Below are positions 1,890 through 16,767 of a stretch of DNA of 20,561 bases, piece by piece. Source of the DNA: a virus. The stretch is from the IMG/VR virus record IMGVR_UViG_3300008339_000649, positions 1-20,561 of that record. One strand, given 5' to 3'. Under the pieces are notes generated by a model. It searched no databases, was not told the origin of the DNA, and saw nothing but the letters and a program-made list of their open reading frames with translations. The translations under genes and the position numbers were made by a program. Position 1 is the first letter of the stretch. Each line of letters opens with the position of its first letter.

Positions 1890-1897
1890 AATAAATA
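1890..1897 (+). promoter_or_regulatory. ATAAATA late-promoter-like element
   Basis: AATAAATA ends 18 nt before the ATG at 1916. The same word recurs in the other plus-strand gaps and resembles the T4 late promoter TATAAATA. If it is used, the leader would be very short, which fits the absence of a Shine-Dalgarno site for this gene. Confidence 0.4.
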
Positions 1898-1915
1898 ATT
1901 CAAAATATTTACATT

Positions 1916-2266
1916 ATGGAACCACGTTATCGATATCAGGGCAAGGATCGCCCATATATTAGATCCATTAGATTATGGTATATTCGTAGTCGTTGTCAGG
2001 CTCGTTTTAGGGGTGAGGAATTCGCTGTATCCTGGACACATTTTCTGTCATTATGGCTCACAGACAACCAGTGGCAGAGTCACGGCACTGGCAGTCTTGA
2101 TTTATGTTTTGGTCGTTGGGATTGTGATTTACCCTGGACTGACTCAAATACACTAATTATTTCACGACAGGATTACCTAAAAAGGAGATTTAGTCGTGAG
2201 AATAATTCAATACCAAAAAATCGAACCCGCCACAAGCAGAACCTGGTTCGCAAGATTGAAGCCTGA
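1916..2266 (+). CDS. Conserved phage protein, HNH-like motif pattern
   Basis: 116-aa protein. Residues 28-60 (RCQARFRGEEFAVSWTHFLSLW) and 60-90 (DLCFGRWDCDLPWTDSN followed by LIISR) follow a pattern I associate with small phage proteins. Those carry an R.QA.FRxE.W.....F..LW block and an R.D...PW...N..I..R block, the latter resembling the second half of HNH nuclease domains. The canonical HNH histidines are not evident, so catalysis is doubtful. No Shine-Dalgarno precedes the ATG. The last 24 codons overlap the next gene by 71 nt and look unconserved. First gene of the rightward unit. Confidence 0.5.
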   Translation: MEPRYRYQGKDRPYIRSIRLWYIRSRCQARFRGEEFAVSWTHFLSLWLTDNQWQSHGTGSLDLCFGRWDCDLPWTDSNTLIISRQDYLKRRFSRENNSIPKNRTRHKQNLVRKIEA

Positions 2267-2573
2267 GGATAGATCTTGGCTACAGGCAGAGATTGTTAGT
2301 TTTCTTGTAGCAGTAACAGAAACCAGTAGTCAAACTACTCGGGATCCTTGGTTCACAGTGTCAAGTCCCTGTCGGGAGTTATGGGGCCGAAGTCAGCAGT
2401 ATCCTGGTGCCAATACTATGTTAAGTGTATTAAGTGGTGTATATCGTAAACTGGAGCGTAGTAGTGATATCAGTGCTCGTCAGGTTGAATTTGTCAATCG
2501 CATTGGCAGCATAATAGATCAATTAGGCACTGACACAGAACAATTTAAACCATTTAGGTTAGACAGTGTTTAG
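2196..2573 (+). CDS. Hypothetical protein, GTG start
   Basis: 125-aa protein with no family I recognise. It is Trp- and Arg-containing, predicted mostly helical, with two helical blocks (about 25-45 and 75-110) flanking a TTRDPWFTV segment. The GTG at 2196 is supported by AAAGGAGA at 2181-2188, so translation starts inside the preceding gene. Its stop overlaps the next gene's GTG start by 8 nt, indicating translational coupling of 1916, 2196 and 2566. Confidence 0.55.
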   Translation: MRIIQYQKIEPATSRTWFARLKPEDRSWLQAEIVSFLVAVTETSSQTTRDPWFTVSSPCRELWGRSQQYPGANTMLSVLSGVYRKLERSSDISARQVEFVNRIGSIIDQLGTDTEQFKPFRLDSV

Positions 2574-3102
2574 CAGTGTAGTCGTATTAAATGGTCCCAG
2601 CAGCCTGCGTTGGTCTGGTCGAGATATCGCCTTAGAGACCTATGGTTGTAATTTAGCCTATAAGGATTTTAGATTGGATCACTGTGTCATAGTGGATGTT
2701 GAGGCTGTGCGTAATCTTCGTCATGAACAGCGTCCAAGTCACACACGTTTTTATACTAAAACCGCATGTCCTGACAGTTATCTTTGGCCAGGACTAGAAC
2801 GTATCCCTATTCCGGGCATAGATTCGGGCACAGCAGCCTGTGATCTGGCACTAAAACGTACACAAGGTTGGGTTTTGGTCATAGGAGCAGATGGTCAATT
2901 TGGTCAAACACAAACAAGATATCAGTATCCTTGGCAACGACGACAGCCCACAGAACGTGTGTATAGCATTCATTATCAAACCTGGCTCAAATTACATTCG
3001 AGTCATCGTGTTATATTTTGTAGCGAACAACGTCATCCTGTATTTCTAACCTTGGGCTTTGAGGGCTGTCTAAACCTGGTTTGTCGTAGTCAAAATAAAT
3101 AA
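2566..3102 (+). CDS. Rossmann-like DUF115/GT42-type protein
   Basis: 178-aa protein. Three blocks match a phage family related to DUF115/sialyltransferase-like Rossmann proteins. They are an N-terminal VVLNGPSSLRW (residues 6-16), YGCNLAYKDF (26-35) followed by VIVDVEAV (41-48), and SGTAACDLAL...WVLVIGADG (87-110). The NGPS loop and the 'SG..A..LA......IG.D' segment normally build a nucleotide-sugar site, so a sugar-transfer role, perhaps on tail or cell-surface components, is plausible. This is inference from motifs only. GTG start overlaps the previous stop. The gene lies directly upstream of the big fiber gene. A start further in is unlikely because the NGPS strand begins at residue 4. Confidence 0.5.
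   Translation: MFSSVVVLNGPSSLRWSGRDIALETYGCNLAYKDFRLDHCVIVDVEAVRNLRHEQRPSHTRFYTKTACPDSYLWPGLERIPIPGIDSGTAACDLALKRTQGWVLVIGADGQFGQTQTRYQYPWQRRQPTERVYSIHYQTWLKLHSSHRVIFCSEQRHPVFLTLGFEGCLNLVCRSQNK
3095..3101 (+). promoter_or_regulatory. ATAAATA late-promoter-like element
   Basis: ATAAATA overlaps the stop codon of the preceding gene and ends 19 nt before the fiber ATG at 3121. Because it covers the codons AAT AAA TAA, it could be coincidental; its spacing to the ATG nearly equals that of the 1891 element. Confidence 0.3.
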
Positions 3103-3120
3103 AGTTGGAGCCCAAACACA

Positions 3121-6100
3121 ATGGTAAAACCCGTTATAGTTAAGAGACTGGTCAAGGGCAGTCATCTTACATTTACAGAATTAGATCAAAATTTTCAAAA
3201 TCTACGTGATGCCACCATAAATTTCACTGATGGCTCACAAACACTCAGCATAGATCTCAATGACACTGTGGTCATTGAAGGCCAGGCTGATCATAACATA
3301 CAGGTCACTGTGGATGATACTAGCAGTCTTGACCAAACCATAACCATAGATAATCTTCTAGGTGATTATACCAAGGAGCCCATGGGGTTTGAAAATCGCA
3401 CAGACAGCACTGTGAGTTTTAATGCTGGATCAAGGCAGTTTAGTATTGCACCTACCACTAGCAGTTATCGTATTTGGGTGCAGGGTCGTATGTTTATAAA
3501 AACTACTACACTAACTTCAACAATACCCAATACCAGTGATCTATATTATTTTTATTTTGACAGTGCAGGCCTTTTACAGTATGGGACTAGTTTTAATTTT
3601 GGCCAACACTGTCCTATCAGTGCTCTGCAATGGAATGCCAACACAGGCAATTATTATTTCCTAGGTGAAGAGCGTCACGGCGTCACAATGGACTGGAGCA
3701 CACATCAATACCTCAATGAAACAAGGGGTATGCAGTATGCGTCAGGTTTTGCTGCTACAAATTATACAACTACTGGTTCAGGTGCCTTGGATGCAGATGC
3801 ACAATTGGATCTAACTGATGGTGTGGTCTATCAGGAAGACATAAGAATTAGTGTTAGCCATAGCAATACACCTACATATAGTCTATTTCAACAGGACATA
3901 GCAGGACCAGGTCGTTTTCCTGTGACCTATCACAGTGGTAGCACAGGTGAATGGGTCAAAGATTCAGCAACCGATTTTCCTGTCAAGGCTGGCACTAGTC
4001 GCATAACCTATAACTTAAACACAGCAGGCACTTGGACCACTCCGGATGTAGGAGCCAATCAATTTGTGGCCTATTGGTTAGTGGCCACTAGCAATATTTT
4101 AGATGGCCCTATTGTCAGTGTTATGGGACAAAGAACAGACAGTAATATTGGTAATGCACAGGATAACAATACTTTTAGTGAATTAGACCTTACTAATTTC
4201 CCTGGTGCAGAAAGCAGACCATTATATCGTTTGATATTTCAAACAGGCAGTTATGGCAATACTGTAAATGCACGACTGGTAGATATTCAGGACATTAGAT
4301 TAGACACTGTTAGAGCCACATTAGGCTCAACTGCCGCAGGACTGGCCAATGTTGTAGAAGATTTGAATCCACAATTGGGTGGTGACCTAGATGTAAATGG
4401 ATTCAGTATTGTTAGTATAAGCAATGGTAATATACCTATAACACCTAATGGCACTGGCAGCATTATTCTAGATGGCCTTAGTTGGCCACAAACTGATGGA
4501 TCAGCCAACTATGTGCTAAAAACTAATGGATCAGGACAATTAAGTTGGGTAGCACAGACTGTGGATACCAATACCACTTATCAATTGTCGGCTATACAAG
4601 ATGGTCTAGATGCCAACATAAGACTAACAGGCAGTGACGCAAGTACAGATGACATACAATTAGAAGCAGGTTCAAATATCGCATTAAGTGTGACCAGTAC
4701 TGGTGCTATACAAATTAGAACTAGCGCAGATCAGTCAGTGGACAATCTAGCAGCCACTTATAATCTTACAGCAGGTGGTTATACACAATCATCAAATCAA
4801 TTGTATGCTTTTAGTAGTGTTGGTGCAGATGGCACACAGTCAGGTAGCACGCCTCATAGAGGATTAGGTGTTAGTAATGCAACCTCAGGTAGTCGTGCTG
4901 TTGTATATGTTAGAGCACACGGACAAAATGAAAGTGGTGGCACTGGCACTACCTCAGGCCTTGCTCAATTAACATTAGAAGGCACAAGAGGTACACATAC
5001 TGCGCCCACTGCCTTAACCACAAATAATAATTTTGCTATTATTAGTGCAGGAGGATATGATGGTGCCAAATACACTGTCTCTGACAGGGGTGCAGGCACA
5101 GCACAGATAATTTTCCAAGCAGATGAACCCTGGGCCAATGATGGCACATATACCACAGATGCTGGAACTGTTATGGTAGTTAGAGCACAGCCCAGTAATA
5201 TGCGTTTGACCAGTAATAGTCGTCAAAACATTTTTATCACTGATTGGGATACAACAGTAACGGGCAGTGGCCCTGAGCAGTTTATTTTATTTGGTTATCC
5301 CAATAGTAATACACAATATACCAACACAGGTGTTCAATATACGGGCACTGCAAAAACTAAAACGCAATTTATCAATACCGCTTTGGCCAATATTGGTGTA
5401 ACTGGTCAGGATGGTGCAGAATTTACAGCAGATATTACAGGAACCACAATGACAGTCACTGCTGTCGCCAGTGGTATTATAAGCCTAGGACAAAGAATTT
5501 ATACCAACAGTGATGGAACCTGGGGCAGTGTTACACAATTAACTACAATTACAGCCCTAGGCACTGGCACAGGTGGCACAGGAACTTATACTGTTAGTGT
5601 TAGTCAAACAGTCGCAAGTATGACCATGTATAGCGGTCCTGATAATCATAGTTTAAGATTTAGTAACAGTATTGCTTTAGTTGCCAATCGACGTAATGGC
5701 CTAATTGGTCGTAGAAATAAAATTAAAAATAATGACATAATTCATACTATTGATTTTTATGGCCAAACTACAAACAGTAGTAGTGGATTTGGTGGTAAAA
5801 CGGCCACTATAGGTGTTACTGCCGTAGAGGATTTTGAAACCACAGCCTATGGTAGTCGATTTGCAATTGAAACAGTAGCACCAACAACTACCACAATGTC
5901 AACTAGATTAAGTCTGCAAAGCACTGTGAGCACAATTAACACAGATAGTTTAACAGTGGAAAATGTCGCAGGCACAGATATCTTAACCTTGTCTACAACC
6001 GCAGCAGAATTAACCAGTCAATCTATTGACCTTACTACAACCAGCACAGGTAATATCACATTAGATATAAATGATCAAATTTTAGTAAATGGTAGAGCGG

Positions 6101-6567
6101 GCAGTCCTGTTATACAAAGTACAAATTCCAGTTATCCAGGGCTAATCTTACAAAGTCAAACAGATTATATAAGTTATATTAGAATAGCAGGTGGACAAAA
6201 TGGCGACATCACCATATTTCCTCATGGTACCGGTAATGTTAACATGCTTACTGATACACTACGCCTTGGTGACAATGGTGAAGATTGCGCAATTACAACC
6301 TATGGCAGTTATGATCTAACATTGAACACCGACAGTGGTACCAGTAGTGGTAGTATAAAAATTAATGCAGGTGCCAATGGTAATATAGAAATTACACCTA
6401 ATGGTACTGGTAAAATTGACCTTGCTGGTGCTATAAAAACTAATGCTACCACAGGCACGCCCACAAATTATGAAAATGGGTATTTTGAGGATATGTTGGC
6501 CACTCCTGTAAGTTGGCTCAAAATAAATGTTGGTGGCAGTGACTATTATATGCCACTATTTCAATAA
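3121..6567 (+). CDS. Large tail fiber / adhesin
   Basis: 1148-aa Ser/Thr/Asn/Gly-rich, beta-structured protein. Residues 7-28 carry the phage fiber N-terminal pattern KGSHLTFTELDQNFQNL. Around 406-450 is the module GLANVVEDLNPQLGG followed by ITPNGTGSI. Next come WPQTDGSANYVLKTNGSG (about 457-475), a motif common in phage fibers, then long beta-rich repeats. Near the C-terminus are PHGTG and PNGTG copies and a terminal block WLKINVGGSDYYMPLFQ. The last block resembles C-terminal ends of other marine phage fibers. No S74 peptidase/chaperone domain is visible. It probably forms the trimeric receptor-binding fiber. GGAG at 3107-3110 precedes the ATG. Shares modules with the 7636 gene. Confidence 0.8.
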   Translation: MVKPVIVKRLVKGSHLTFTELDQNFQNLRDATINFTDGSQTLSIDLNDTVVIEGQADHNIQVTVDDTSSLDQTITIDNLLGDYTKEPMGFENRTDSTVSFNAGSRQFSIAPTTSSYRIWVQGRMFIKTTTLTSTIPNTSDLYYFYFDSAGLLQYGTSFNFGQHCPISALQWNANTGNYYFLGEERHGVTMDWSTHQYLNETRGMQYASGFAATNYTTTGSGALDADAQLDLTDGVVYQEDIRISVSHSNTPTYSLFQQDIAGPGRFPVTYHSGSTGEWVKDSATDFPVKAGTSRITYNLNTAGTWTTPDVGANQFVAYWLVATSNILDGPIVSVMGQRTDSNIGNAQDNNTFSELDLTNFPGAESRPLYRLIFQTGSYGNTVNARLVDIQDIRLDTVRATLGSTAAGLANVVEDLNPQLGGDLDVNGFSIVSISNGNIPITPNGTGSIILDGLSWPQTDGSANYVLKTNGSGQLSWVAQTVDTNTTYQLSAIQDGLDANIRLTGSDASTDDIQLEAGSNIALSVTSTGAIQIRTSADQSVDNLAATYNLTAGGYTQSSNQLYAFSSVGADGTQSGSTPHRGLGVSNATSGSRAVVYVRAHGQNESGGTGTTSGLAQLTLEGTRGTHTAPTALTTNNNFAIISAGGYDGAKYTVSDRGAGTAQIIFQADEPWANDGTYTTDAGTVMVVRAQPSNMRLTSNSRQNIFITDWDTTVTGSGPEQFILFGYPNSNTQYTNTGVQYTGTAKTKTQFINTALANIGVTGQDGAEFTADITGTTMTVTAVASGIISLGQRIYTNSDGTWGSVTQLTTITALGTGTGGTGTYTVSVSQTVASMTMYSGPDNHSLRFSNSIALVANRRNGLIGRRNKIKNNDIIHTIDFYGQTTNSSSGFGGKTATIGVTAVEDFETTAYGSRFAIETVAPTTTTMSTRLSLQSTVSTINTDSLTVENVAGTDILTLSTTAAELTSQSIDLTTTSTGNITLDINDQILVNGRAGSPVIQSTNSSYPGLILQSQTDYISYIRIAGGQNGDITIFPHGTGNVNMLTDTLRLGDNGEDCAITTYGSYDLTLNTDSGTSSGSIKINAGANGNIEITPNGTGKIDLAGAIKTNATTGTPTNYENGYFEDMLATPVSWLKINVGGSDYYMPLFQ

Positions 6568-6577
6568 GGAATAAACT

Positions 6578-7111
6578 ATGCCTACTTGGCCTTCAACTAC
6601 AATTAGTACAACACATCTTGATGCCGGAGGCGATCGTCCCAGTCTTGCTCGTGCTGACATAAAACAAATGGCAGATGTGGTTAATGAATTAGTAAATTAT
6701 GGTACACCACAAGGTGGGTATCCATTTTTTATTATCTATCCTAATTTAGGAACAGGACAAAGTGTCGGTGGACAATATCGTTGGTCAATAACAGAAGAAT
6801 ATGATGCAGGTGGATTGACTACGCTGTCGGATAGCAATTATAGATTTAGTTTAGATGCAGGAACTTGGATATTCAATCCATTGTCAGGTTATCAAGGATT
6901 GGATACTAAAGAAAGTTTAATAATTTATAATTATACAGGATCTACTACATTGGGCACAATGGAAAATGATGAAATAGGCACAACAGGCACTACAATTATT
7001 CAAGGTACATTACCTATTGTTGTAGCCAGCAACATAGTCTGTGAATTAAGAACAGCCAGTGTGACTGGACCTAATAGCAGTCATTACGTTTTCTGCATAA
7101 AAGTAGCCTAA
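6578..7111 (+). CDS. Phage fiber-associated structural protein
   Basis: 177-aa protein. The N-terminus (STTHLDAGGDRPSLARADI, residues 9-27) is a frequent phage virion motif of the form TT.LD.G.DSP..ARAD, seen at the start of fiber or tip proteins. The remainder is beta-rich: FSLDAGTWIFNPL near residue 89, then LIIYNYTG, ending with HYVFCIKVA. That pattern suggests a small jelly-roll (C1q-like) head. It starts 10 nt after the large fiber stop, with AAGGA directly ahead, so the two are co-transcribed. Likely an accessory fiber or fiber-tip protein; exact position in the virion is unknown. Confidence 0.6.
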   Translation: MPTWPSTTISTTHLDAGGDRPSLARADIKQMADVVNELVNYGTPQGGYPFFIIYPNLGTGQSVGGQYRWSITEEYDAGGLTTLSDSNYRFSLDAGTWIFNPLSGYQGLDTKESLIIYNYTGSTTLGTMENDEIGTTGTTIIQGTLPIVVASNIVCELRTASVTGPNSSHYVFCIKVA

Positions 7112-7135
7112 AAACGCCCTATAAAAAATAACCCA

Positions 7136-7146
7136 ATAAATATAAT
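7136..7146 (+). promoter_or_regulatory. ATAAATA / TATAAT promoter-like element
   Basis: ATAAATA at 7136-7142 runs into TATAAT at 7141-7146. No TTGACA-like -35 box is present at the usual spacing. Lies in the 71-nt gap before the GTG at 7183 and abuts a perfect palindrome, so it is a good candidate for a regulated start of a late transcript. Confidence 0.45.
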
Positions 7147-7159
7147 TGTAATTACAATT
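7144..7159. promoter_or_regulatory. 16-bp perfect palindrome
   Basis: AATTGTAATTACAATT is fully self-complementary. It overlaps the TATAAT-like word and lies upstream of the 7183 ribosome binding site. With no loop it is more likely a protein-binding dyad than an RNA terminator. Confidence 0.5.
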
Positions 7160-7182
7160 TAGTAACCCTTAAGGAGATTCCA

Positions 7183-7623
7183 GTGAGCAACGCTTGTTCC
7201 AATTATTTAGAACGTAAAATTCTTGACCACGTATTAGGTGAAGGTGCTAGAAATTATACTAGTCCTACACTTTATGTGGCCTTATTCACAGCCGTAACAG
7301 GACTTGAAGGCAATAGCCCAACCAGTGAAGTATCAACATCAGGCACTGCCTATGCTCGTGTAGCAGTAAACTTTGCCGCAGCAGACACTACCAGTGATGC
7401 TTATACATTTGCCACAACCAGCGGTGATGTAGAATTTGCCGCTGCTACAGGTGGTGGATTTGGTACAGTCACCCACGTGGCCATTGTTGATCATCAAACA
7501 AACACCAACTGGGGAACCGATGTCAATGTGCTGTTTTATGGACAACTAAGCACCAGCAAGACAATTAGTGCATCAGATATTTTCAAAATTACCGCCGGCA
7601 ACCTAACAGTTCAGTTGGCCTAA
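7183..7623 (+). CDS. Gp80-like phage tail/structural protein
   Basis: 146-aa protein with a pattern typical of a widespread virion family often named phage tail fiber protein (Gp80-like). Features in order: N-terminal helix SNYLERKILDHVLG, then SPTLYVALFTA (residues 26-36), AYARVAVNF (about 57), GTVTHVAIVD (about 93-102), LFYGQLSTSKTISASD, and terminal TAGNLTVQLA. GTG start chosen because AAGGAGA lies at 7171-7177 with ideal spacing. It begins a new transcription unit after the palindrome. It probably decorates or connects the fiber region; the family name is from memory. Confidence 0.65.
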   Translation: MSNACSNYLERKILDHVLGEGARNYTSPTLYVALFTAVTGLEGNSPTSEVSTSGTAYARVAVNFAAADTTSDAYTFATTSGDVEFAAATGGGFGTVTHVAIVDHQTNTNWGTDVNVLFYGQLSTSKTISASDIFKITAGNLTVQLA

Positions 7624-7635
7624 TAGGAGGTCACA

Positions 7636-8739
7636 ATGGCTACAATAGTAACCAGGACTGGTAAAGGCAGTGCCTTAACCTGGGCAGAAGGTGATGCTAA
7701 TTTTAATAACCTAAATTCTGACAAGTTAGAAAATGTAACATTACGTGGTGACTCAGGCACGGATGCTGCCATAACCAGTAATGAAATTGTTCGAATCAGT
7801 GGCGGCACTGGACTTAGCAGTGTGGTCAGTACTGAAAGCACAGGACAGAGTACTGTTACACTTAATTTAGACAATACCACAGTTACACCCAATACCTATA
7901 CACTAGCAACTATAACAGTTGATGCTCAAGGACGTATAACCAGCGCCAGTAATGGTACTGGTGGTGGAGGTCTCAGCAATGTTGTAGAAGATCTAACACC
8001 TCAACTTGGTGGTAATTTAGATGTCAATGGTTTTACTATTACCAGTGTGTCAAATGCTAATGTTGAAATTTCACCCAATGGTACAGGTGATGTTTATCTA
8101 ACTGCTGACACTATAAGAGTTGGTGATAGCAATACCAATGTAACAATTACGACTAATGGAACTGGTGATCTAATTCTTAACACAAACAGTGGCAGTAGCA
8201 GTGGTAGCATTACTATTGCAGACGGAGCCAATGGAAATATTTCTATAGCACCTAATGGCACTGGTTTTGTTGAAATACCTGGAACAGCCAGCACTAGTGG
8301 TCGTATTAAATTATATGAAGAATTAAGCAGTGCTGCTAATACAAATAGTGTAACATTAAGAGCACCACAAATATTGCAGGCTGATGTAACTTTAACATTA
8401 CCTAGCACTTCAACCTCAGCAACATTAGGGTATTTGAACATACCAGCAGTTGGAGCGAAATCAGGCAGTTATACATTGACCACAGCAGATGTGGGAGAGT
8501 ATGTAGAAGTTCAAAGTGGTGGCAGTATAACAATACCAAATAGCACATTTAGTGCAGGTGACATTGTGGTAATTGTTAATAATCATACTGCTGCAATTAC
8601 CATAACTTGTACTATTACAGATGCTTATATTGCAGGTACTGATAGTGATAAAGCCACTGTTAGTTTGGCCACAAGAGGTATAGCAAATATCTTTTTTGTA
8701 AGTGGTACTCGTTGTATTATTACAGGAAATGTTTCATAA
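7636..8739 (+). CDS. Tail fiber, paralog of the large fiber
   Basis: 367-aa beta-rich protein. N-terminal RTGKGSALTWAEGDANFNNL (residues 7-26) is the same fiber-start motif as in the 3121 gene. The module at 112-150 (NVVEDLTPQLGG...PNGTG) and that at about 155-215 (DTIRVGD...SGSITIADGAN, PNGTG) repeat modules of the large fiber. The C-terminal 95 residues (GAKSGSYTLTTADVGEYVEV onward, ending with LATRGIANIFFVSGTRCIIT) form a separate beta domain common at phage fiber ends. AGGAGGT at 7625-7631 is a full-strength Shine-Dalgarno. Stop overlaps the next ATG (TAATG). Confidence 0.75.
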   Translation: MATIVTRTGKGSALTWAEGDANFNNLNSDKLENVTLRGDSGTDAAITSNEIVRISGGTGLSSVVSTESTGQSTVTLNLDNTTVTPNTYTLATITVDAQGRITSASNGTGGGGLSNVVEDLTPQLGGNLDVNGFTITSVSNANVEISPNGTGDVYLTADTIRVGDSNTNVTITTNGTGDLILNTNSGSSSGSITIADGANGNISIAPNGTGFVEIPGTASTSGRIKLYEELSSAANTNSVTLRAPQILQADVTLTLPSTSTSATLGYLNIPAVGAKSGSYTLTTADVGEYVEVQSGGSITIPNSTFSAGDIVVIVNNHTAAITITCTITDAYIAGTDSDKATVSLATRGIANIFFVSGTRCIITGNVS

Positions 8740-9461
8740 TGGGTGGAGCACTTGCGAGTTTATTAGGTAGTCATCCTATTGCAGCAGGTAGAAGTGCTAT
8801 AACTTTAACTGCCAGTGGTAATGCTCAAATCGACACTGGATCTTTCAAGATAGGATCTAGTAGTGGTTTATTTGATGGCACAGGTGACTATCTAACTACT
8901 GGTGATCTTTCCACTGTTTTACCAAATACCAGTAACTTTACCTTGGAATTTTGGGTAAGATTTAATGTACTACCTACAAGTGGTAATTTTAGAATGATAT
9001 GGGGAACTAGTAGTCCTAATCAATATTGGGGATTATGGAACAGTAGTGGAACATATAGAATAGCAGTAGCAGTGACTGGATCAGATGGAACATTTTATAG
9101 AGATTGGTCTAATGGAGGAACACCTAGCACAACCACGTGGTATCATTATGCTATGGTTAAAAATGGCACTAGTTTAGATGTATACAAAGATGGCACTGCA
9201 CTAACCAGTCCTACTAGCACAGGCACAATGACCGCAAACAAAGGTATAGCAGGCAGTACCTCATATATTGCCCGTTGGAGTAATGCCACCTCATATCAAC
9301 ACAATGGATGGATAGATGAACTTAGATTAAGCAAAACTGCAAGATATACTGCTAACTTTACTGCTCCAACCTCGGCATTTACTAATGATAGTAATACAGT
9401 TTTGTTAGTTCATTTTGAAGGTGCAGATGGCACCACTACATTTACAGACGATAACGCATAA
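8739..9461 (+). CDS. LamG / concanavalin A-like lectin-fold virion protein
   Basis: 240-aa protein. A laminin G-like jelly roll occupies most of the chain. Visible motifs are SGLFDGTGDYLTTGD (residues 36-50), NFTLEFWVRF (about 62-71), TWYHYAMVKNGTSLDVYKDG (about 131-150), GWIDELRLSKTARYT and NTVLLVHFEG. These are the usual LamG_3 landmarks, and the fold commonly binds carbohydrate. The ATG at 8739 was chosen over an upstream TTG (8712) because it forms a TAATG overlap with the previous stop and has AGGAA about 10 nt upstream. Likely a receptor-contact or fiber protein; the ligand cannot be inferred. Confidence 0.7.
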   Translation: MGGALASLLGSHPIAAGRSAITLTASGNAQIDTGSFKIGSSSGLFDGTGDYLTTGDLSTVLPNTSNFTLEFWVRFNVLPTSGNFRMIWGTSSPNQYWGLWNSSGTYRIAVAVTGSDGTFYRDWSNGGTPSTTTWYHYAMVKNGTSLDVYKDGTALTSPTSTGTMTANKGIAGSTSYIARWSNATSYQHNGWIDELRLSKTARYTANFTAPTSAFTNDSNTVLLVHFEGADGTTTFTDDNA

Positions 9462-10666
9462 TGGCTGACCAATACTATATTGACCCAGGATATTTTACTC
9501 CAGAAGAGTATTTTGCCTATGTGGCAGAAGCCGAAGCCAATATACAATCTATTACAATTTTAACTAGCACAGGTAATCGTGCTCAAACAGGCAATGTTGT
9601 TATAGAATCGTCAACAATAATAAGTGTTAGTGCCAGTACTGTAATAGAAATTCCTACAAGTGTAATAACTTGGGATGAAACAGGAACTTGGGATGATTTT
9701 ACTGGAGGATATTGGGATCCAGTAGGATTTGTAATTCCTAGCACATTTGTGGTTACAGCACAAGGTGCCAAATTATTTTCTTCAACGGCAAATATACAGT
9801 CTACATCAAACGTGGTTGTTGACGCCAATCTAGTACAATCCGGCAGTGCTAGTATAGAATCTACAACGCAGGTACAGGTTGCAGGATTGCGTTTACCAAC
9901 TTCAACCAGTCAATTAGAATCAACCTCAGCGGTAACTGTCAGTGGCACAAGAATAAGTTTAGGCCAAGTTGTTATGGCCAGCACATCAACTGTGACTGCT
10001 AGTGGAACTAAGGCCGGTGAAATTGTTGTTACATTATTTGATACACTTGCACTAATAGCAACTGCTACTGTAACTTCATTTGGACAGGCAAATGTACAAT
10101 CTAGTACAGCAACCACTGTTATAGGTAATAGACTACAATTAGCAGACGTTAATATACAAACTAGTACAAATTTAGATATTATATTATCTCTAATACAACT
10201 TAACTCTAGTGTATTAACAGGCTCAAGTAATTTAACTGCCATAGGCAATCGCGTAGAAACAGCAGCCTCAACTATTATCAGTCAAGCCACTGTAGAATCT
10301 TTTGCAGCAAGAATAAGAACTGGCTTGGCCAATATCAGTGTTGATTCAGCATTGGATCTAACACCAGCAAGGATTAGACTAGGTCAGTCACAATTAGCAG
10401 TTACAAGTTTTGTAATAGTTAATCCTATAGGTGTTATTCTAGACGGTCGTGCTAATCTCAGTGCATTTTCTGTTCAGGTTGTTATAGGTGATGTAATTGG
10501 TATTGTTCCATACTTTACCATACGTGTATTACCAGAAACAAGAACGATTGTAGTAGATGAGGCCACAGGCACGATAACAGTTTTACCAGAAACAAGAACT
10601 ATAATTACAGAACAAGAAACAAGAAATATAATGGTCATTCCTGAATCCAGGACCATAGTTTATTAG
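9461..10666 (+). CDS. Tandem-repeat virion protein
   Basis: 401-aa protein. Residues about 68-90 contain TWDETGTWDDFTGGYWDPVG, a motif I recognise in marine phage structural proteins. About 95-340 are built of roughly a dozen degenerate 19-21-residue units following 'a.i.STs.v.v.G.ri..g', for example QLESTSAVTVSGTRISLG and VVMASTSTVTASGTKAG. The periodicity suggests a beta-solenoid or fibrous shaft. The C-terminal 50 residues carry four PETRTI-like repeats. Start overlaps the previous stop (TAATG). Its place between the fibers and the fiber-tail adaptor suggests a distal tail or baseplate-fiber component. Confidence 0.65.
   Translation: MADQYYIDPGYFTPEEYFAYVAEAEANIQSITILTSTGNRAQTGNVVIESSTIISVSASTVIEIPTSVITWDETGTWDDFTGGYWDPVGFVIPSTFVVTAQGAKLFSSTANIQSTSNVVVDANLVQSGSASIESTTQVQVAGLRLPTSTSQLESTSAVTVSGTRISLGQVVMASTSTVTASGTKAGEIVVTLFDTLALIATATVTSFGQANVQSSTATTVIGNRLQLADVNIQTSTNLDIILSLIQLNSSVLTGSSNLTAIGNRVETAASTIISQATVESFAARIRTGLANISVDSALDLTPARIRLGQSQLAVTSFVIVNPIGVILDGRANLSAFSVQVVIGDVIGIVPYFTIRVLPETRTIVVDEATGTITVLPETRTIITEQETRNIMVIPESRTIVY
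10529..10663 (+). repeat. LPETRTI repeat block
   Basis: TTACCAGAAACAAGAAC occurs at 10529-10545 and again at 10583-10599, 54 nt (18 codons) apart. Looser copies around 10615 and 10640 encode QETRNI and PESRTI. Together they give four short repeats closing the 9461 protein. Confidence 0.6.
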
Positions 10667-10674
10667 GAGGCAGT

Positions 10675-11004
10675 ATGGCAACCCTAACAGGTTTTCAACA
10701 AGATAATACAGGTGCATATATAGAAAAAGATCCTAACGCCAAACTTACTTACACAGTGAGTTGGGTAGATTGGTTGCCTACAGGACAGACTGTGTCAACC
10801 AGTAGTTGGACTTTGGAAACAGACAGTGGCGACGGTAGTCCTTTGGTCAATCACGCTACAAGTGCAACAACCACCACAGCCAGTATTATTATCAGCGGTG
10901 GCAGTGCAGGCTCAATATATAAAGTTTATAACACAATAACAACCAGTGGAGGCTCCATAGAAAGGCGATATTTTAGACTAAGAGTAAAGGAGAGATCACT
11001 GTAA
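10675..11004 (+). CDS. Phage fiber-tail adaptor-like protein
   Basis: 109-aa protein matching a small Ig-like virion family named fiber-tail adaptor. Landmarks: YIEKDPNAKLTYTVSWVDWL (residues 15-34), STSSWTLETD (42-51), TTTASIIISGGSAGSIYKV (about 66-84), NTITTSGGSIERRYFRLRVKER. The order of a KDP...YTVDW...WL strand followed by 'GG.AG..Y.V.N.I.T..G....R.F...V' is characteristic. AGGAGG at 10665-10670 gives a strong ribosome site. It separates the fiber cassette from the packaging genes and presumably links fibers to the tail. Family by memory. Confidence 0.65.
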   Translation: MATLTGFQQDNTGAYIEKDPNAKLTYTVSWVDWLPTGQTVSTSSWTLETDSGDGSPLVNHATSATTTTASIIISGGSAGSIYKVYNTITTSGGSIERRYFRLRVKERSL

Positions 11005-11357
11005 TGCTTAAATTAGTCAAAGAAGAACAAGAAGAAGATTTATCAAGACCTGCTGCTGCACCTAGGGTCAGAGACATTGATAAAAATATGGTATGGAAGT
11101 TGGCCACAATGATGTGTTCCTACAAAGAAATAGGAGACATTTTTGGCCTAGGCGAAAGTACAGTTCGTAGACACTTTGGCAGTCTTATTGAACAGGCCTA
11201 TAGCATAGGTCGTCGTAGTCTGCGTCGTGCTCAGTTTCAAAAAGCCCTTGAAGGCGATACTCGTATGCTTATATTTTTAGGCAAACAATATTTGCAGCAA
11301 AAGGATACGCCAACAGAAACAGAAACAGTGCAGCCTTTGCCTTGGAAGGATGACTAA
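11004..11357 (+). CDS. HTH packaging protein, terminase small subunit-like
   Basis: 117-aa protein. Residues 29-58 form a helix-turn-helix (MVWKLATMMCSYKEIGDIFG, then GESTVRRHF). An Arg-rich helix follows (RRSLRRAQFQKALEG), then MLIFLGKQYLQQKD, a tail I associate with small DNA-packaging proteins of marine phages. The position, two genes before the large terminase, supports a role in recognising the packaging start site. ATG overlaps the previous stop (TAATG). A pure transcription regulator is the alternative. Confidence 0.7.
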   Translation: MLKLVKEEQEEDLSRPAAAPRVRDIDKNMVWKLATMMCSYKEIGDIFGLGESTVRRHFGSLIEQAYSIGRRSLRRAQFQKALEGDTRMLIFLGKQYLQQKDTPTETETVQPLPWKDD

Positions 11358-11538
11358 CATGACACTGAAAGAATTAGCACAAGAAATTAAAAATATTAAA
11401 GAAAATCACCTTGCTCACATAGAACAAGATGTCAGTAAATTAGAACGTCGTGTGGAAAGCATTGATGGGCGTATATGGGCAGTGTTAGTAATTTTAGTGG
11501 GCAGTGTTATAGGTTTTATTTTTAAGGGCCTTGTCTAA
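11350..11538 (+). CDS. Small coiled-coil plus TM protein, XhlA-like
   Basis: 62-aa protein. Residues 5-40 form an amphipathic helix or coiled coil (LKELAQEIKNIKENHLAHI and onward), and 42-59 are one hydrophobic membrane segment (IWAVLVILVGSVIGFIF). The arrangement resembles XhlA-type holin accessory proteins, but similar small proteins of unknown role are frequent beside phage terminases. ATG at 11350 overlaps the preceding gene by 8 nt; ATG 11359 is an alternative start. Its stop overlaps the terminase ATG. Membrane insertion likely, lysis function uncertain. Confidence 0.55.
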   Translation: MTNMTLKELAQEIKNIKENHLAHIEQDVSKLERRVESIDGRIWAVLVILVGSVIGFIFKGLV

Positions 11539-12779
11539 TGCCATTAACAGTTCCGCAAAGAACTATAGCAGATAATCCTGCCAGATTCAAAGTCTTGATT
11601 TCAGGACGTAGATTTGGCAAGACTCACCTTGCTATTAGAGAATTGTGTAAGATGGCTGCAAAAAAGCCAGGTAGTATATGCTGGGCCATTTGTCCAAGTT
11701 ATCGTATGGCCAAACAAATTTGGTGGATACAATTAAAAAGTAAATTACATGATCTACGTTGGGTAGAAAAAAGTAATGAAGCAGAATTAACAATCACACT
11801 CAAGAATGGTAGCCTCATTGCCTTGAAGGGCGCAGACAACTTTGACAGTCTACGAGGTGTTGGTCTTGATTTGGTTATTTTTGACGAGTTCCAGGATGTT
11901 CCTAAAGAAGCGTGGTCTGAAGTTATAAGACCTACACTAAGTGATAAGCAGGGCAGTGCATTGTTCTGCGGCACGCCTCGAGGTGTGGGCAGTTTTAGCC
12001 ACGAACTTTATACAAAGGCTCTGACCGAACAAGACTGGGCCGCCTTCCAATTTTCTACAATCGAAGGCGGTAATGTTCCCATAGAAGAAATCGAAGCAGC
12101 CAAAAGAGACTTAGATGAAAGAACATTTCTTGCTGAATATTGTGCTAGTTTTTTAACCTATTCTGGAACTGTATATTATAACTTTGATTATCAGCGCAAT
12201 GTTATAAAAATTCCAGAAATAGACCAAGGCGTTATAAATGTTGGAATGGACTTTAACTATGATCCAATGTGTGCCATCATAGCACAGATCAAAGGTGAGC
12301 ATATACACATCTATGATGAACTACACATTAAAGGTTCAAACACAGAAGAAGTCTGTGATGAACTAAAACGTCGTTATCCTTATAGCAAGATCAATGTATT
12401 TCCAGATCCTGCTGCAAGACAAAAACGAACAAGTGCAGGAGGTAAGACTGATTACTCCATATTAGTCAATAATAATTTTACTGTACGAGCACGAAACTTT
12501 CATACTCCTGTGAGAGATCGTGTTAATGCTGTCAACGCTAAACTTAAAAATGCAGCAGGACTAACCAGTCTTACTGTTGATCCCAAGTGCCGGCATACAA
12601 TTGACAGCCTACAGAGATTAACCTATAAAGAACAAACTAATCAAATAGACAAAGAAAGTGGCCTGGATCACCAAAGTGATTGCGTGGGCTATCTTGTTGA
12701 TTATTTGTTCCCAATTAAGACTAAAGTTGAACAGGTCGAACCACAAAGATGGACCTTTAGCACAGTAAGGAAAAAATAA
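11538..12779 (+). CDS. terL: Terminase large subunit
   Basis: 413-aa packaging motor ATPase/nuclease. Walker A is SGRRFGKTH (residues 22-30). Walker B is LVIFDEF (112-118) with catalytic Glu117, and the coupling motif is CGTPRG (144-149). The RNase H-like nuclease has acidic residues at GMDFNYDP (D238), VFPDP (D290) and DHQSD (D377/D381). All the catalytic elements are present and the length is normal for the family. It pumps DNA into the prohead through the portal encoded next; stop and portal start overlap (TAATG). Confidence 0.95.
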   Translation: MPLTVPQRTIADNPARFKVLISGRRFGKTHLAIRELCKMAAKKPGSICWAICPSYRMAKQIWWIQLKSKLHDLRWVEKSNEAELTITLKNGSLIALKGADNFDSLRGVGLDLVIFDEFQDVPKEAWSEVIRPTLSDKQGSALFCGTPRGVGSFSHELYTKALTEQDWAAFQFSTIEGGNVPIEEIEAAKRDLDERTFLAEYCASFLTYSGTVYYNFDYQRNVIKIPEIDQGVINVGMDFNYDPMCAIIAQIKGEHIHIYDELHIKGSNTEEVCDELKRRYPYSKINVFPDPAARQKRTSAGGKTDYSILVNNNFTVRARNFHTPVRDRVNAVNAKLKNAAGLTSLTVDPKCRHTIDSLQRLTYKEQTNQIDKESGLDHQSDCVGYLVDYLFPIKTKVEQVEPQRWTFSTVRKK

Positions 12780-14479
12780 TGTATAGCAAATATGACATTG
12801 AACAAGCACACCCAGAATGGTCTAATAACATTGATCGTTGGCAATTTTTAATTGACAGTTATTATGGTGGCAAAGAATATAGAGATGGAAAATATCTACT
12901 TGGCTATCTTATGGAAGCACAAGAAGACTATGAAGAACGATTAGACAACACTGCATTAGACAATCACGTAAGTGCAGTGGTCAGTATCTATAATGCTTTT
13001 CTTTTTAGACAGCCACCTAAACGCGACATGGGTAGTTTGGCATTAGATCCTGGACTAGAAGCATTTATGGCCGATGCTGACTTAGAAGGTAGAACATTCA
13101 GTGCCATTATGAGAGATGTATCAACCTATAGTAGTGTATATGGACATGTTTGGTGCGTTATAGACAAACCTGAGACCACAGCCTATACTCGTGCTGAAGA
13201 ATTAGCACAAGGATTACGTCCATATATCAGTTTGTTTACACCTGAGAATGTTATAGATTGGTCTTACAGTCGTGCTAGTAATGGTGCTTACTATCTTACC
13301 TATTTGAAAGTTATAGAAAGTCGCAGTTCAGATCGTATTGTATGGCGTATCTACAGGCCAGATCGTATAGAAGTTGTCTATATGGAAAAAGGTGCACGAG
13401 ATCCTGTTATAGAAAGTGTAACTATGAATGCTCTTGGTCGCGTGCCTGCTCTATGTGTCTATACACGTCGTAGTCCAATAAGAGGCATAGGCGTAAGTGA
13501 TGTAGGTGATGTAGCAGACCTACAACGCAGTATCTATAACGAACTTTCAGAATGTGAACAGTTAATTAGATTAACCAATCATCCAAGCCTCGTAAAAACC
13601 GCATCAACACAGGCCGCAGCAGGCGCAGGTGCAATCATACAAATGCCAGAAGATTTGCAAGCAGATCTCAAACCATACCTACTACAACCTAATGGCAGCA
13701 GTTTAGATGGCATTCTAAATGCTATGAAACATAAAATTGAAGCCATTGATCGCATAGCACATATGGGTGGTATTCGCAGTATAGAAAGTCGTAGACTATC
13801 AGGTGTGGCACTGGCAACAGAGTTCCAACTTTTGAACGCAAAGTTAGCAGCCAAAGGTGAAGAGATGGAATTTGCTGAAGAACAAATTTGGCGTCTTTAT
13901 GCTCAATGGCAGGGTATGGTTTGGGACGGAAGCGTTGATTATCCAGATAGTTTCAATATTCAAGACAAGTATAACGATATGAATATGCTTAAATTGGCCA
14001 AAGATGCCGGACCTAAGAGTCTAGTTGTGCAGCAAGAAATTGAACGTCAAATGTTGAGAATATTGGTTGAAAACGAAGACCGTTATGAAGAACTAGTAAC
14101 AGAAATAGGCGAAGAAACTGAAAAAGATGAAGCCAGTTTAATCATGGACAGTTTACAGGTCTATGAAAAAGTTAAACAAATTATTGCAATGCCTTCAACA
14201 GGCAATGCAGATATTGATCGTGCAATTCATAACGAAGTATTAGATGAAGCCATTGATGATCCAGCAGTTAAACAACAGTTAGGCATTGTTCACGAAGAAG
14301 AGGAAGAAGAGGAAGAAGAGCATCCTAGCCTAGAAGGCATGAGTCCAGAGGATAGACAAAGCCATTTGCAGTCAATGTTAATGGAAGGTTATAGCAACGA
14401 TGAAATTATAGAACTTCATCCCGAAGTCGATGTAGAAGAAATTGTAGCAGCAGCGGCAGCAGCAGCAAGAAGTAATTAA
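12779..14479 (+). CDS. Portal protein
   Basis: 566-aa portal, slightly longer than usual. Core landmarks: an N-terminal helical YYGGKEYRDGKYLLGYL (residues 28-44), LDNTALDNHVSAVVSIYNAF, then SPIRGIGVSDVGDVADLQRS and NELSECEQLIRLTNHPS of the wing/stem, and SGVALATEFQLLNAKLAAK of the crown-side helices. The C-terminal 60 residues hold an acidic Glu run (nt 14294-14320) and 'MSPEDRQSHLQSMLMEGYS', ending in an Ala-rich helix. Directly downstream of TerL, it would form the dodecameric ring for DNA entry. Homology by context and pattern. Confidence 0.9.
   Translation: MYSKYDIEQAHPEWSNNIDRWQFLIDSYYGGKEYRDGKYLLGYLMEAQEDYEERLDNTALDNHVSAVVSIYNAFLFRQPPKRDMGSLALDPGLEAFMADADLEGRTFSAIMRDVSTYSSVYGHVWCVIDKPETTAYTRAEELAQGLRPYISLFTPENVIDWSYSRASNGAYYLTYLKVIESRSSDRIVWRIYRPDRIEVVYMEKGARDPVIESVTMNALGRVPALCVYTRRSPIRGIGVSDVGDVADLQRSIYNELSECEQLIRLTNHPSLVKTASTQAAAGAGAIIQMPEDLQADLKPYLLQPNGSSLDGILNAMKHKIEAIDRIAHMGGIRSIESRRLSGVALATEFQLLNAKLAAKGEEMEFAEEQIWRLYAQWQGMVWDGSVDYPDSFNIQDKYNDMNMLKLAKDAGPKSLVVQQEIERQMLRILVENEDRYEELVTEIGEETEKDEASLIMDSLQVYEKVKQIIAMPSTGNADIDRAIHNEVLDEAIDDPAVKQQLGIVHEEEEEEEEEHPSLEGMSPEDRQSHLQSMLMEGYSNDEIIELHPEVDVEEIVAAAAAAARSN
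14294..14320 (+). repeat. Three perfect copies of GAAGAAGAG
   Basis: A 27-nt tandem array of the 9-mer GAAGAAGAG encodes nine glutamates in the portal C-terminus. Such arrays can gain or lose units by slippage without shifting frame. Confidence 0.8.
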
Positions 14480-14487
14480 GGACACTT

Positions 14488-14859
14488 ATGTTAGACATTC
14501 ATAGACTACTACTTGAAGATGATCCAAATTTAGATTATAAAAAATATAGCCCTGAAGTATTGAATAGATACTTTGGCTATAAAGTTAGACCCAGCGAGCA
14601 TCATTTTAGAATTCTCAAGTTGGCAGAGTTATACTATGTCAATAATGAAAAATTTATGAAGAAGGGCTATTTGGAACCTGGTATTCGTGCTCGTGAAGCA
14701 TTAAGAGAATTGCGTAAGTTAGTGGTCACTAGACGTATAGAAATATTAGAAGATATGTATCGCATTCGTGCAGAATATCGAAGACTTCGCCAACCTGAAA
14801 ACTATAAGGAGAATGTATATGCCCTTAAAAAAAGGATACGGAAAAAAGACGATCAGTAG
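14488..14859 (+). CDS. Hypothetical basic helical protein
   Basis: 123-aa protein, predicted mostly helical and strongly basic in its C-terminal half ([20 protein letters not shown]). No family recognised. It lies between portal and scaffold, where head-morphogenesis accessory proteins often sit. AAGGA at about 14479-14483 precedes the ATG. The last 41 nt overlap the next gene. Confidence 0.6.
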
Positions 14860-14989
14860 AAATATTGCCGCAGAAGTAAGAGCAGGTCGTCCAGTTAAGC
14901 AGGCAGTGGCAATCGCTTATAGCATGGCCAGAAAGTCAGCACCAAAAAATAAACGTGCTGCATTATCAAGAAGAAAGGGGAGAGCATGA
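14819..14989 (+). CDS. Small basic MPLKKG-type phage protein
   Basis: 56-aa Lys/Arg-rich protein beginning [20 protein letters not shown], with [16 protein letters not shown] and a basic tail. This matches a very common phage protein pattern (MPLKKG..K..IS.NI..E...G.P.KQAVAIA). The ATG at 14819 was chosen over earlier in-frame starts because AAGGAG lies at 14806-14811, at the right distance, and the conserved motif begins there. Possibly a DNA-associated head protein; unknown. Confidence 0.65.
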
Positions 14990-15033
14990 AATACGGTAAG
15001 AAAAAGCCCAAAAAACGTGGTAAAAAATACTAG
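14986..15033 (+). CDS. 15-aa Lys-rich microprotein
   Basis: Reading ATG at 14986 gives [15 protein letters not shown] and then TAG. GGGGAGAG lies just upstream and the start overlaps the previous stop (ATGA), as for real coupled genes here. Similar Lys/Gly-rich mini-proteins are known from phages beside this gene family. With +9 net basic residues it could bind DNA. Too short for coding statistics. Confidence 0.4.
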
Positions 15034-15047
15034 TATTATAAATAATA
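15034..15047 (+). promoter_or_regulatory. TATAAATA late-promoter-like element
   Basis: TATTATAAATAATA (15034-15047) is an inverted repeat with a two-base centre and contains TATAAATA at 15037-15044, the exact T4 late promoter consensus. It precedes the scaffold gene by 61 nt, a suitable distance for a promoter of the head genes. Confidence 0.5.
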
Positions 15048-15104
15048 TTACATTAACAGAATTATCTGGTTGGTGTTACTCTTTCACCTAATAAGGAGGC
15101 CATA

Positions 15105-15776
15105 ATGAGTGATGAGGTTACTGGTAAGCCCACTGTTGAAGCAGACTTCACAACAGAAACCCAGGATCGGACAGGATTTACACAGGAAGATGTTGATCGC
15201 ATTGTAAAAGAAAGATTAACTAGAGAAAGATCAAAAATTCTTAAACAGTATGAAGGTGTTGACGTAGAACGTTATAGACAACTTACTGCCAAAGAAGAAC
15301 AATTGCAATTGGAACAAGAAAAAGCCAAGGGTAATTTTGAAAAGGTCTTGCAGGAAACAGTTAGTAAGAAAGACAGTGCCATACAGCAACTTCAAAGAGA
15401 GTTACAAGCAATTAAGGTTGATGGTAGTTTGTTATCAGCGGCATCAGGTCGCAAGGCAATCAATCCTCAACAGGTGGTAAGGTTATTGAAAGACAATATT
15501 AGATTGACAGCCACAGGTGAAGTTGAAGTTGTAGATGAACAAGGTAATGTTCGTTATACAGAAACAGGTTCAGCAATGTCAGCAGAAGATCTAGTAAATG
15601 AATTTCTAAATACCAATCCACACTTTGTCAGTGCAGGTCCTAGTGGATCAGGCAGTCAAAGTAGTATTGCTCAAAACAAACAAGGTGTAATTGATCCTGC
15701 CAAGTTGAATATGAATGACCCTAAAGACAGGGCCCTTTATAGAGAACATATGAAGTCTAAAGGTATAAAAATTTAA
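15105..15776 (+). CDS. Scaffolding protein
   Basis: 223-aa protein, coiled-coil-like in residues 45-115 (KEEQLQLEQEKAKGNFEKVL, then QQLQRELQAI). The N-terminus has TGFTQEDVDRIVKERLTRER, the usual start of phage scaffolds. The C-terminal LNMNDPKDRALYREHMK is basic and typical of the capsid-interacting tail. AAGGAGG at 15093-15099 gives strong translation. It would shape the prohead and leave before packaging. Position immediately ahead of the major capsid gene supports this. Confidence 0.85.
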   Translation: MSDEVTGKPTVEADFTTETQDRTGFTQEDVDRIVKERLTRERSKILKQYEGVDVERYRQLTAKEEQLQLEQEKAKGNFEKVLQETVSKKDSAIQQLQRELQAIKVDGSLLSAASGRKAINPQQVVRLLKDNIRLTATGEVEVVDEQGNVRYTETGSAMSAEDLVNEFLNTNPHFVSAGPSGSGSQSSIAQNKQGVIDPAKLNMNDPKDRALYREHMKSKGIKI

Positions 15777-15797
15777 CATAACTTTTAGGAGGCCATT

Positions 15798-16682
15798 ATG
15801 GCAACAGGTGCAACAACTTCGGGTACCGCAGGTAGTAATCAAAACCTAGCAGCCCTTTATTCAACAATTCAACAGACCGCTCTCTTCACTATGCAAGAAG
15901 TGGCATTTATGCGTCCTTTAGTACGCAACTTTAACTTGGTAGGACAACCAGGTAAAACTGCTCGTGTTGGTATCTATCCAACATTGGCAACTAGCCTTAT
16001 TACCACAGGTGAAGGCACAGACATCAGCGCTGCTCAGCGTATTGATGCCACTGAGAAAGAATTCTCAGCAACAGAAAAAGCCATCATGGCTACACTAACT
16101 GACACTGCTCGTGATAGCACAGCAGATGATTCAGCGGCTGCTATTGGTCGTGTTCTTGGTGAAACTCTTGCCAAGAAAATCGATGAAGACATTGCTGCAT
16201 TATTCACAGGTTTCAGTTCAGCAGTCGGTGGTGGAAGTGGAACAGAATTAACACCAGATGATATCCTTGCTGCTATTGCCACACTACGTGGTAATTCAGT
16301 AACAGGTCCTTTTGTTGGTGTATTTCATCCATATCAGACCTACAACCTACGCAAAGTTTTAGCCAATGCTGGTGCTGCTACAGTCCCTGCACTAAGTGAT
16401 GTAGGTAATGCTGTTTTACAAAGTGGATATATCGGACGCTTGTTCGGTGTAGATATCTATGAGTCAGCAGTGGTTACTGGCACAAGTGCTGGTGCTTACA
16501 TTGGTGCTGTGATGCATCCAGATGCTCTTGCTTTCTGCTTGAAGAAAGATCTAGGCATTGAAACACAACGTGATGCAAGCCTACGTGCTACAGAAATTGT
16601 GGCAAGTTGCACATACGCAGTTGGTGAATTATTTGACCTACACGGCGTAAAGATCATCACTGATGCTTCAATTAGCAACTAA
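15798..16682 (+). CDS. Major capsid protein (HK97 fold)
   Basis: 294-aa protein following the scaffold. Landmarks: helix-rich N-arm (residues 10-40), ARVGIYPTLATSLITTGEGT (55-74), TEKEFSATEKAIMATLTDTA (about 84-103), ETLAKKIDEDIAALFTGF, GPFVGVFHPYQTYNLRKVLA, IGRLFGVDIYES and TYAVGELFDLHGVKII. The last pattern, an inner strand after a helix, is common to HK97-type capsids from marine phages. Length is normal. AGGAGG at 15787-15792. Followed by a terminator, so its mRNA level can be set apart from tail genes. Confidence 0.9.
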   Translation: MATGATTSGTAGSNQNLAALYSTIQQTALFTMQEVAFMRPLVRNFNLVGQPGKTARVGIYPTLATSLITTGEGTDISAAQRIDATEKEFSATEKAIMATLTDTARDSTADDSAAAIGRVLGETLAKKIDEDIAALFTGFSSAVGGGSGTELTPDDILAAIATLRGNSVTGPFVGVFHPYQTYNLRKVLANAGAATVPALSDVGNAVLQSGYIGRLFGVDIYESAVVTGTSAGAYIGAVMHPDALAFCLKKDLGIETQRDASLRATEIVASCTYAVGELFDLHGVKIITDASISN

Positions 16683-16698
16683 TCATTATTAGTTCTAT

Positions 16699-16724
16699 AA
16701 GGGGGTTATCAAGCCCCCTTTTTC
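16699..16724 (+). terminator. Intrinsic terminator after major capsid gene
   Basis: AAGGGGG (16699-16705) pairs with CCCCCTT (16714-16720) around an 8-nt loop, followed by a T run (16719-16723). A strong G:C stem with T-tract 16 nt after the capsid stop is the standard Rho-independent terminator form. Confidence 0.85.
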
Positions 16725-16732
16725 TATATACA

Positions 16733-16739
16733 ATAAATA
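16733..16739 (+). promoter_or_regulatory. ATAAATA late-promoter-like element
   Basis: Located 9 nt after the terminator T-tract and 61 nt before the ATG at 16800, the same distance as the 15037 element. It would restart transcription for the tail genes. Confidence 0.45.
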
Positions 16740-16746
16740 TAACAAC

Positions 16747-16767
16747 GAGAGAAGAAGGACTTCTCTT
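16747..16767 (+). promoter_or_regulatory. Leader hairpin with AAGGA loop
   Basis: GAGAGAAG (16747-16754) pairs with CTTCTCTT (16760-16767), including one G-U pair. The five-base loop is AAGGA, itself Shine-Dalgarno-like. The true ribosome site of the next gene (16786-16792) lies 18 nt further on. May stabilise the mRNA 5' end. Confidence 0.4.

Follow-up and report, generated by a model that had tools for sequence, protein, structure and literature searches.

Gene calls and homologue searches place the 20,561-base window—by which we mean the whole stretch of DNA analysed here—within the genome of a siphophage, and a nearly identical IMG/VR record of 33,792 bp (G001) extends it. Along its plus strand stand five copies of a single short word, ATAAATA, each before a gene, and the features that matter for what follows are these.

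1891–1897, plus strand: ATAAATA element in a divergent gap, upstream of the open reading frame 1916–2266 and the P1/P2 genes
1916–2266, plus strand: P1, of a small HNH/PacI-like nuclease family, upstream of P2 and at the head of a divergent operon in several relatives
2196–2573, plus strand: P2, a group-restricted gene (about 125 aa), candidate late specificity factor
3095–3101, plus strand: ATAAATA element, 19 nt before the tail-fibre gene at 3121, overlapping the stop of the open reading frame 2566–3102
7136–7142, plus strand: ATAAATA element before the gene at 7183, kept in G002, G005, G023, and DSL-LC06
11538: TerL
12779: portal
15037–15044, plus strand: TATAAATA element, 60 nt before the scaffold gene
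15105–15776, plus strand: head scaffolding protein (phrog_206, E 2.5e-17), preceded by the 15037 element
15798–16682, plus strand: major capsid protein (phrog_544, E 5.7e-16)
16699–16720, plus strand: intrinsic terminator (9-bp stem, T-rich tail) between the capsid gene and the 16733 element, which it immediately precedes
16733–16739, plus strand: ATAAATA element, 60 nt before the tail-gene block at 16800
16748–16766, plus strand: 5'-leader hairpin with an AAGGA loop, beginning a few nt after the presumed start
16800 onward: tail genes

The comparison drew on many contigs of IMG/VR and on DSL-LC06, a circular phage genome of 29.8 kb from Dishui Lake (OR003941; PMC10611076); four Pelagibacter siphophages in culture (HTVC111P, 202P, 112P, and 026P) served as more distant relatives. 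DSL-LC06 is of the window phage's own lineage (TerL 55%), with the motif in orthologous gaps and P2 present, but it lacks the window phage's 288-aa ATPase and small polymerase-like gene. The four pelagiphages share the TerL, portal, scaffold, and capsid lineage at about 37–49% identity; unlike the window phage, they have no TAAATA promoters of the kind proposed below, no comparable avoidance of TAAATA, and no P2, and they own DnaD-domain or HTH early genes. A search for a host or prophage, made with two protein queries, found no relative in 84,980 bacterial and archaeal genomes.

Two other genes of the window have distant kin. The 288-aa P-loop ATPase (706–1572, minus strand) is common to several motif-bearing phage lineages and has relatives, at 23% identity, in the Burkholderia jumbo phages FLC6 and FLC8; its structure model is poor, and the fold search was uninformative. 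Within the tail-fibre gene (3121–6567), aa 89–398 share 28.6% identity with an uncultured megaphage of 735 kb, and matches to phages of Pelagibacter and Prochlorococcus fall in another part.

Placement of the Word in the Window

Exact matching yields five copies of ATAAATA and no more, at 1891, 3095, 7136, 15038, and 16733, all on the plus strand, with zero copies on the minus strand. A preliminary description of this DNA had listed the same five sites as a candidate set of late promoters; its distances to the start codons (19, 20, 41, 61, and 61 nt) equal ours plus one, for we find that the word ends 18, 19, 40, 60, and 60 nt before the codons at 1916, 3121, 7183, 15105, and 16800. Four of the sites are intergenic, the fifth being the one at 3095, and the gene bodies of the window hold no copy at all, just as had been noticed for the long coding stretches. 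The longer form TATAAATA, reported earlier at 15037, is indeed there, once in the window.

How surprising is such an arrangement? When the count is set against shuffled sequence, as the preliminary description had proposed, here by dinucleotide shuffles, the total proves lower than expected (5 vs 8.4 +/- 2.7), so that the word is not over-frequent. The gaps, which amount to 867 nt, nevertheless hold four sense copies where their composition predicts 0.49 (Poisson P = 0.0017). It is the placement of ATAAATA, not its frequency, that is unusual in the window.

Conservation and Avoidance among Relatives

The decisive support for ATAAATA as a real signal is comparative, and it begins with the sites themselves. 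Upstream of the scaffold gene, 17 of 18 relatives have the word at 55–68 nt and the remaining one, G017, has it at 33 nt, and upstream of the 16800 gene ATAAATA, CTAAATA, or GTAAATA lies at 50–63 nt in all 16; the HTVC phages have it at neither gene (0/4 each), and both tallies include some relatives that are near-duplicates of each other. Orthologues of the 1891 gap (G004, G007, G023, DSL-LC06, and G002) keep ATAAATA, often back-to-back with a reverse copy. The site at 3095 had been suspected of being a chance match. Its overlap with a stop codon is as described, but it is probably real, because [AC]TAAATA precedes the fibre orthologues of five relatives (G007, G004, G002, DSL-LC06, and G019) by about 20–40 nt. 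In G001, eight copies of ATAAATA, three of them outside the window, lie on one strand throughout.

Equal frequency on the opposite strand or within genes had been named in advance as grounds for abandoning the proposal, and neither was seen. Among relatives of the window lineage, once near-duplicates and less related contigs are removed, ATAAATA runs 62:5 toward the structural-gene strand (P = 7e-14); in the four related HTVC siphophages the sense:antisense count is 40:58. Gene interiors, 265 kb in all, hold 4 sense and 3 antisense copies of ATAAATA, and isomeric words mostly occur 20–78 times, the exception being TAAATAA, which holds the TAAATA core. Pelagiphage gene interiors show no shortage of ATAAATA. 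An unbiased k-mer count of intergenic sequence puts TAAATA first among 6-mers (83 vs 28.9 expected), with ATAAATA (51 vs 9.5) and CTAAATA (25 vs 5.3) among the leading 7-mers, and the same count in pelagiphages gives no comparable enrichment of TAAATA.

The reverse of this enrichment is avoidance. Over both strands of the core lineage, TAAATA ranks first in depletion among 2,033 hexamers (98 vs 214 expected, true sites included in the count), and in T4 its avoidance is milder (rank 5 of 1,546). Depletion on both strands suggests that selection clears stray TAAATA, as one would expect for an active, strand-specific initiation signal. Such reverse copies as exist lie mostly in divergent gaps beside a forward copy at a variable spacing (10–24 nt), which fits divergent promoters and is unlike a dimer operator. 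The element is also common to several structural lineages of small phages: the TerL lineage, G020/G021, and L094/L095.

Geometry of the Element and Its Surroundings

What is conserved is a core TAAATA, usually after A and sometimes after C, with CTAAATA as the second form; the reading as a T4 late word thus stands for the core after A or C and falls for the strict TATAAATA. Across 89 contexts, there is no information at a -35 element and no preference for T at -13, just before ATAAATA, a position that is weak also in several T4-like phages (PMC1524935). Beyond the word itself, one position alone stands out: offset 14, eight nt downstream of ATAAATA, holds a purine in 76 of 89 contexts (55% around control ATAAATA words in pelagiphages). 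T4 and 80 environmental gp55-bearing contigs have their purine at offset 12, 6 nt after the word, and HTVC008M has one at both offsets. A few small-phage sites place an ATG at offsets 10–12, which suggests leaderless messages, and where the ATG is at offset 12 it fits the T4 start distance. Transcription would thus begin at either offset 12, as in T4, or offset 14.

Spacings compatible with leaderless messages recur elsewhere. ATAAATA lies 4–5 nt before an ATG at G001 28609 and 30486, G002 24572, G007 1289, and G023 4492, and in gp55-bearing contigs (L098–L177, plus stretches of T4, HTVC008M, and Syn9) an ATG stands exactly at offset 12 in 66 of 250 ATAAATA sites. The latter would be leaderless late messages, their number possibly inflated by one orthologous gene that adjoins gp55.

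Around 16733, the terminator upstream and the hairpin downstream fit a start site between them. The hairpin covaries: there are 24 double-change cells vs 9.4 after shuffling, and slid controls are far lower. Within the 30 nt that follow the hairpin is a second, small one with a TAGGA/CAGGA loop near the ribosome site, and the leader recurs in L064, L065, L063, and L051. These leader hairpins are reminiscent of stem-loops that present a Shine-Dalgarno sequence or of those of the CsrA type (ANGGA). Rfam finds nothing significant in the 15–17 kb region.

A Second Class of Promoters

Could the words simply be sigma70 promoters? We rejected this for the window, where the sites have no -35 and a scan gives 63 matches vs 59.5 expected; TAAATA, moreover, is without the T at position 6 of TATAAT. 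Other gaps in these genomes do carry perfect or near-perfect TTGACA-17-TATAAT promoters (DSL-LC06 1316 and G003 21398; spacing 16 in G020 29526). In G002, G004, and DSL-LC06, sigma70-type promoters stand directly before the P1/P2 genes with ATAAATA just downstream, and in G001, G007, and G023 there is no strong sigma70 promoter before P1/P2. The presence of consensus sigma70 promoters in the same genomes argues that the host sigma70 is conventional and that something else must read the TAAATA class, whose lateness we infer from the genes that it serves.

Search for a Reader

The literature ties T4-style late promoters to the gp55 sigma of T4-like phages. The idea that a siphophage lineage has a dedicated set of -10-only, late-type promoters has held up; that of a T4-type sigma of the phage's own has not. 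Neither the gp55 family (phrog_234) nor the gp33 family (phrog_254) has a member in DSL-LC06 or in any of the motif-bearing contigs searched, with T4, HTVC008M, and Syn9 matching as controls; a deep gp55 profile likewise finds nothing. In near-complete relatives, Sigma70_r2 is absent and the phiEco32-type sigma (phrog_1740) is absent or unsupported, the phiEco32 control matching; its only match, a weak one of 12 bits in G002, falls at the position of the TerS orthologue. In the window, the likely small terminase at 11004–11357 weakly matches a helix-turn-helix like that of Sigma70 region 4 (E 0.006), which could give rise to false sigma annotations. PF00940, for T7-type single-subunit RNA polymerases, gives no match, but neither does it in the control genomes, and Pfam scans of DSL-LC06 and G001 open reading frames list no single-subunit RNA polymerase among their families.

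One polymerase-like protein did emerge. At L057:11085–12215 (G001 29085–30215) lies a 376-aa protein with YDI...P and EHDGW motifs that folds like the palm of family-A DNA polymerases and mitochondrial RNA polymerase (best Foldseek E 1.7e-4), a compact polymerase that we take to be reminiscent of TV-Pols. It has relatives in L094, L095, and G017. As a general reader it was rejected, being absent from DSL-LC06 and most relatives.

One divergent family, P2, is conspicuous as a candidate: nine motif-bearing contigs, spread over several structural lineages, carry a member (leave-one-out E 3e-17 to 7e-4). The HTVC siphophages, T4, HTVC008M, Syn9, and the 80 gp55 contigs lack it, and contigs fetched by P2 alone (L179–L185) carry about 20 sense to 2 antisense copies of ATAAATA. 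P2 was not found in G003, G007, G016, G019, G022, or L094 and is only weak in G017; some of these contigs are fragments, and G017 and G019 are near full size. Its profile has no detectable similarity to PDB, PHROGs, gp55, or sigmas. Having no recognisable similarity and missing from some motif-bearing contigs, P2 is a candidate only, and it could instead be a replication or takeover protein. Its neighbour P1 has a member in DSL-LC06 that lies in a gene annotated as PacI endonuclease and another at L051:7322–7678.

Discussion

We think it highly probable, from sequence comparison, that the five words form one distinct class of -10-only promoters serving virion genes, of the type known from T4 and phiEco32. 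The late promoters of the T4 family, which work with gp55, gp33, and gp45 and depend on the sliding clamp and on replication, likewise have a single -10 element, ATAAATA, with no -35, stand before virion genes, and consist of a word avoided elsewhere. The differences are that the small phages have neither gp55 nor gp33, that the T at -13 is not conserved, that the purine is at offset 14 vs 12, and that T4 is a T4-like myophage and the window lineage one of 30-kb siphophages. The element would act like a T4 late promoter; its membership in the T4 system is not supported, gp55 and gp33 having been sought and not found. In phiEco32, the gp36 late promoters also have a single -10-type element, tAATGTAtA, with no -35 and with starts 6–8 bp downstream, and the early genes use sigma70 (PMC8948821); there, however, the word is different, and the phrog_1740 sigma is absent from the small phages.

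Essentially, then, we propose that -10-only TAAATA elements would be read by the host core RNA polymerase carrying a specificity factor other than sigma70 and would switch on the virion gene blocks after early, sigma70-type genes, the factor being P2, as the best candidate, or some other early protein in which no homology to sigma can be recognised. This explanation as a whole is, in our estimate, about evenly balanced between right and wrong, and so is its central element, that the reader is a phage-encoded factor that has escaped recognition. The narrower claim, that the P2 family is a new promoter-specificity factor with no sequence kinship to known sigmas and brings the host's RNA polymerase to TAAATA promoters that have no -35 in several small aquatic phage lineages, is tentative and on balance rather unlikely. 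As to the reader, we would favour a phage-encoded factor such as P2 over a helper's gp55, and the latter over a host factor.

With a helper, the sites would be true late promoters of the T4 family whose reader comes in trans, and the small phages would be satellite-like, needing a co-infecting, gp55-bearing T4-like phage for late transcription and perhaps for replication. The repertoire does match that of the T4 family, with NATAAATA in T4 and cyanophages, CTAAATA, the second form here, in the T4-family Aeromonas phage Aeh1, and no -35 (PMC2988020, PMC1524935, PMC2984593), and gp55 and gp33 are missing from the small phages. Pfam finds no replication genes in DSL-LC06, G002, G017, G018, or G020, and the related autonomous HTVC siphophages, which have no motif, own DnaD-type genes. 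Satellites with their own capsid genes and no obvious replication genes are known in MiniFlayer and MulchRoom of Streptomyces (PMC10690885), which DSL-LC06 resembles by Pfam, but their hosts differ, the helper would here be a putative one, and their promoters are not mentioned in that paper. Contigs with gp55 come from two metagenomes that also yield small phages (3300021964 and 3300022198), a co-occurrence that is weak because T4-like phages are ubiquitous. The purine at offset 14, rather than at 12 as in gp55-bearing contigs, counts against a helper's gp55, as does the family-A-like polymerase fold in the window phage's full record, by which the phage is not bare of replication functions; we hold this reading to be improbable. 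Less probable still is that TAAATA is read by an alternative sigma of the host, or by the host's RNA polymerase after a small phage protein has modified it, and that the phages exploit this reader. A shared host factor would explain an element common to several unrelated small-phage lineages in which no known sigma was found encoded, but the genome search described above returned no relative and identified no host, and the sites misfit sigma70 in both the -35 and position 6.

Might the word not be a promoter at all? Back-to-back inverted copies in divergent gaps look like operators, and avoidance on both strands could stem from a DNA-cutting or DNA-binding activity, so that TAAATA might be some other sense-strand signal, such as an operator half-site, an RNA processing site, or a protein-binding site. 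Yet the spacing of inverted copies varies, T4 shows the same avoidance, and single sense copies at a fixed distance, a phased purine, an upstream terminator, and a covarying leader hairpin fit a start site, and we regard such a signal as distinctly improbable. Chance AT-rich words in AT-rich gaps we consider extremely improbable: the window total, below the shuffled expectation, would on its own have suited chance, but conservation, strand bias, and avoidance across relatives refute it.

A T4-class element that is strongly selected in 30-kb siphophages, in which no sigma can be recognised, would have one of three meanings: a new family of sigma-like proteins, the dependence of satellite viruses on a T4-like helper, or a host factor not yet linked to phages. 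The avoidance signature itself offers a general computational route to promoter classes in uncultured phages.
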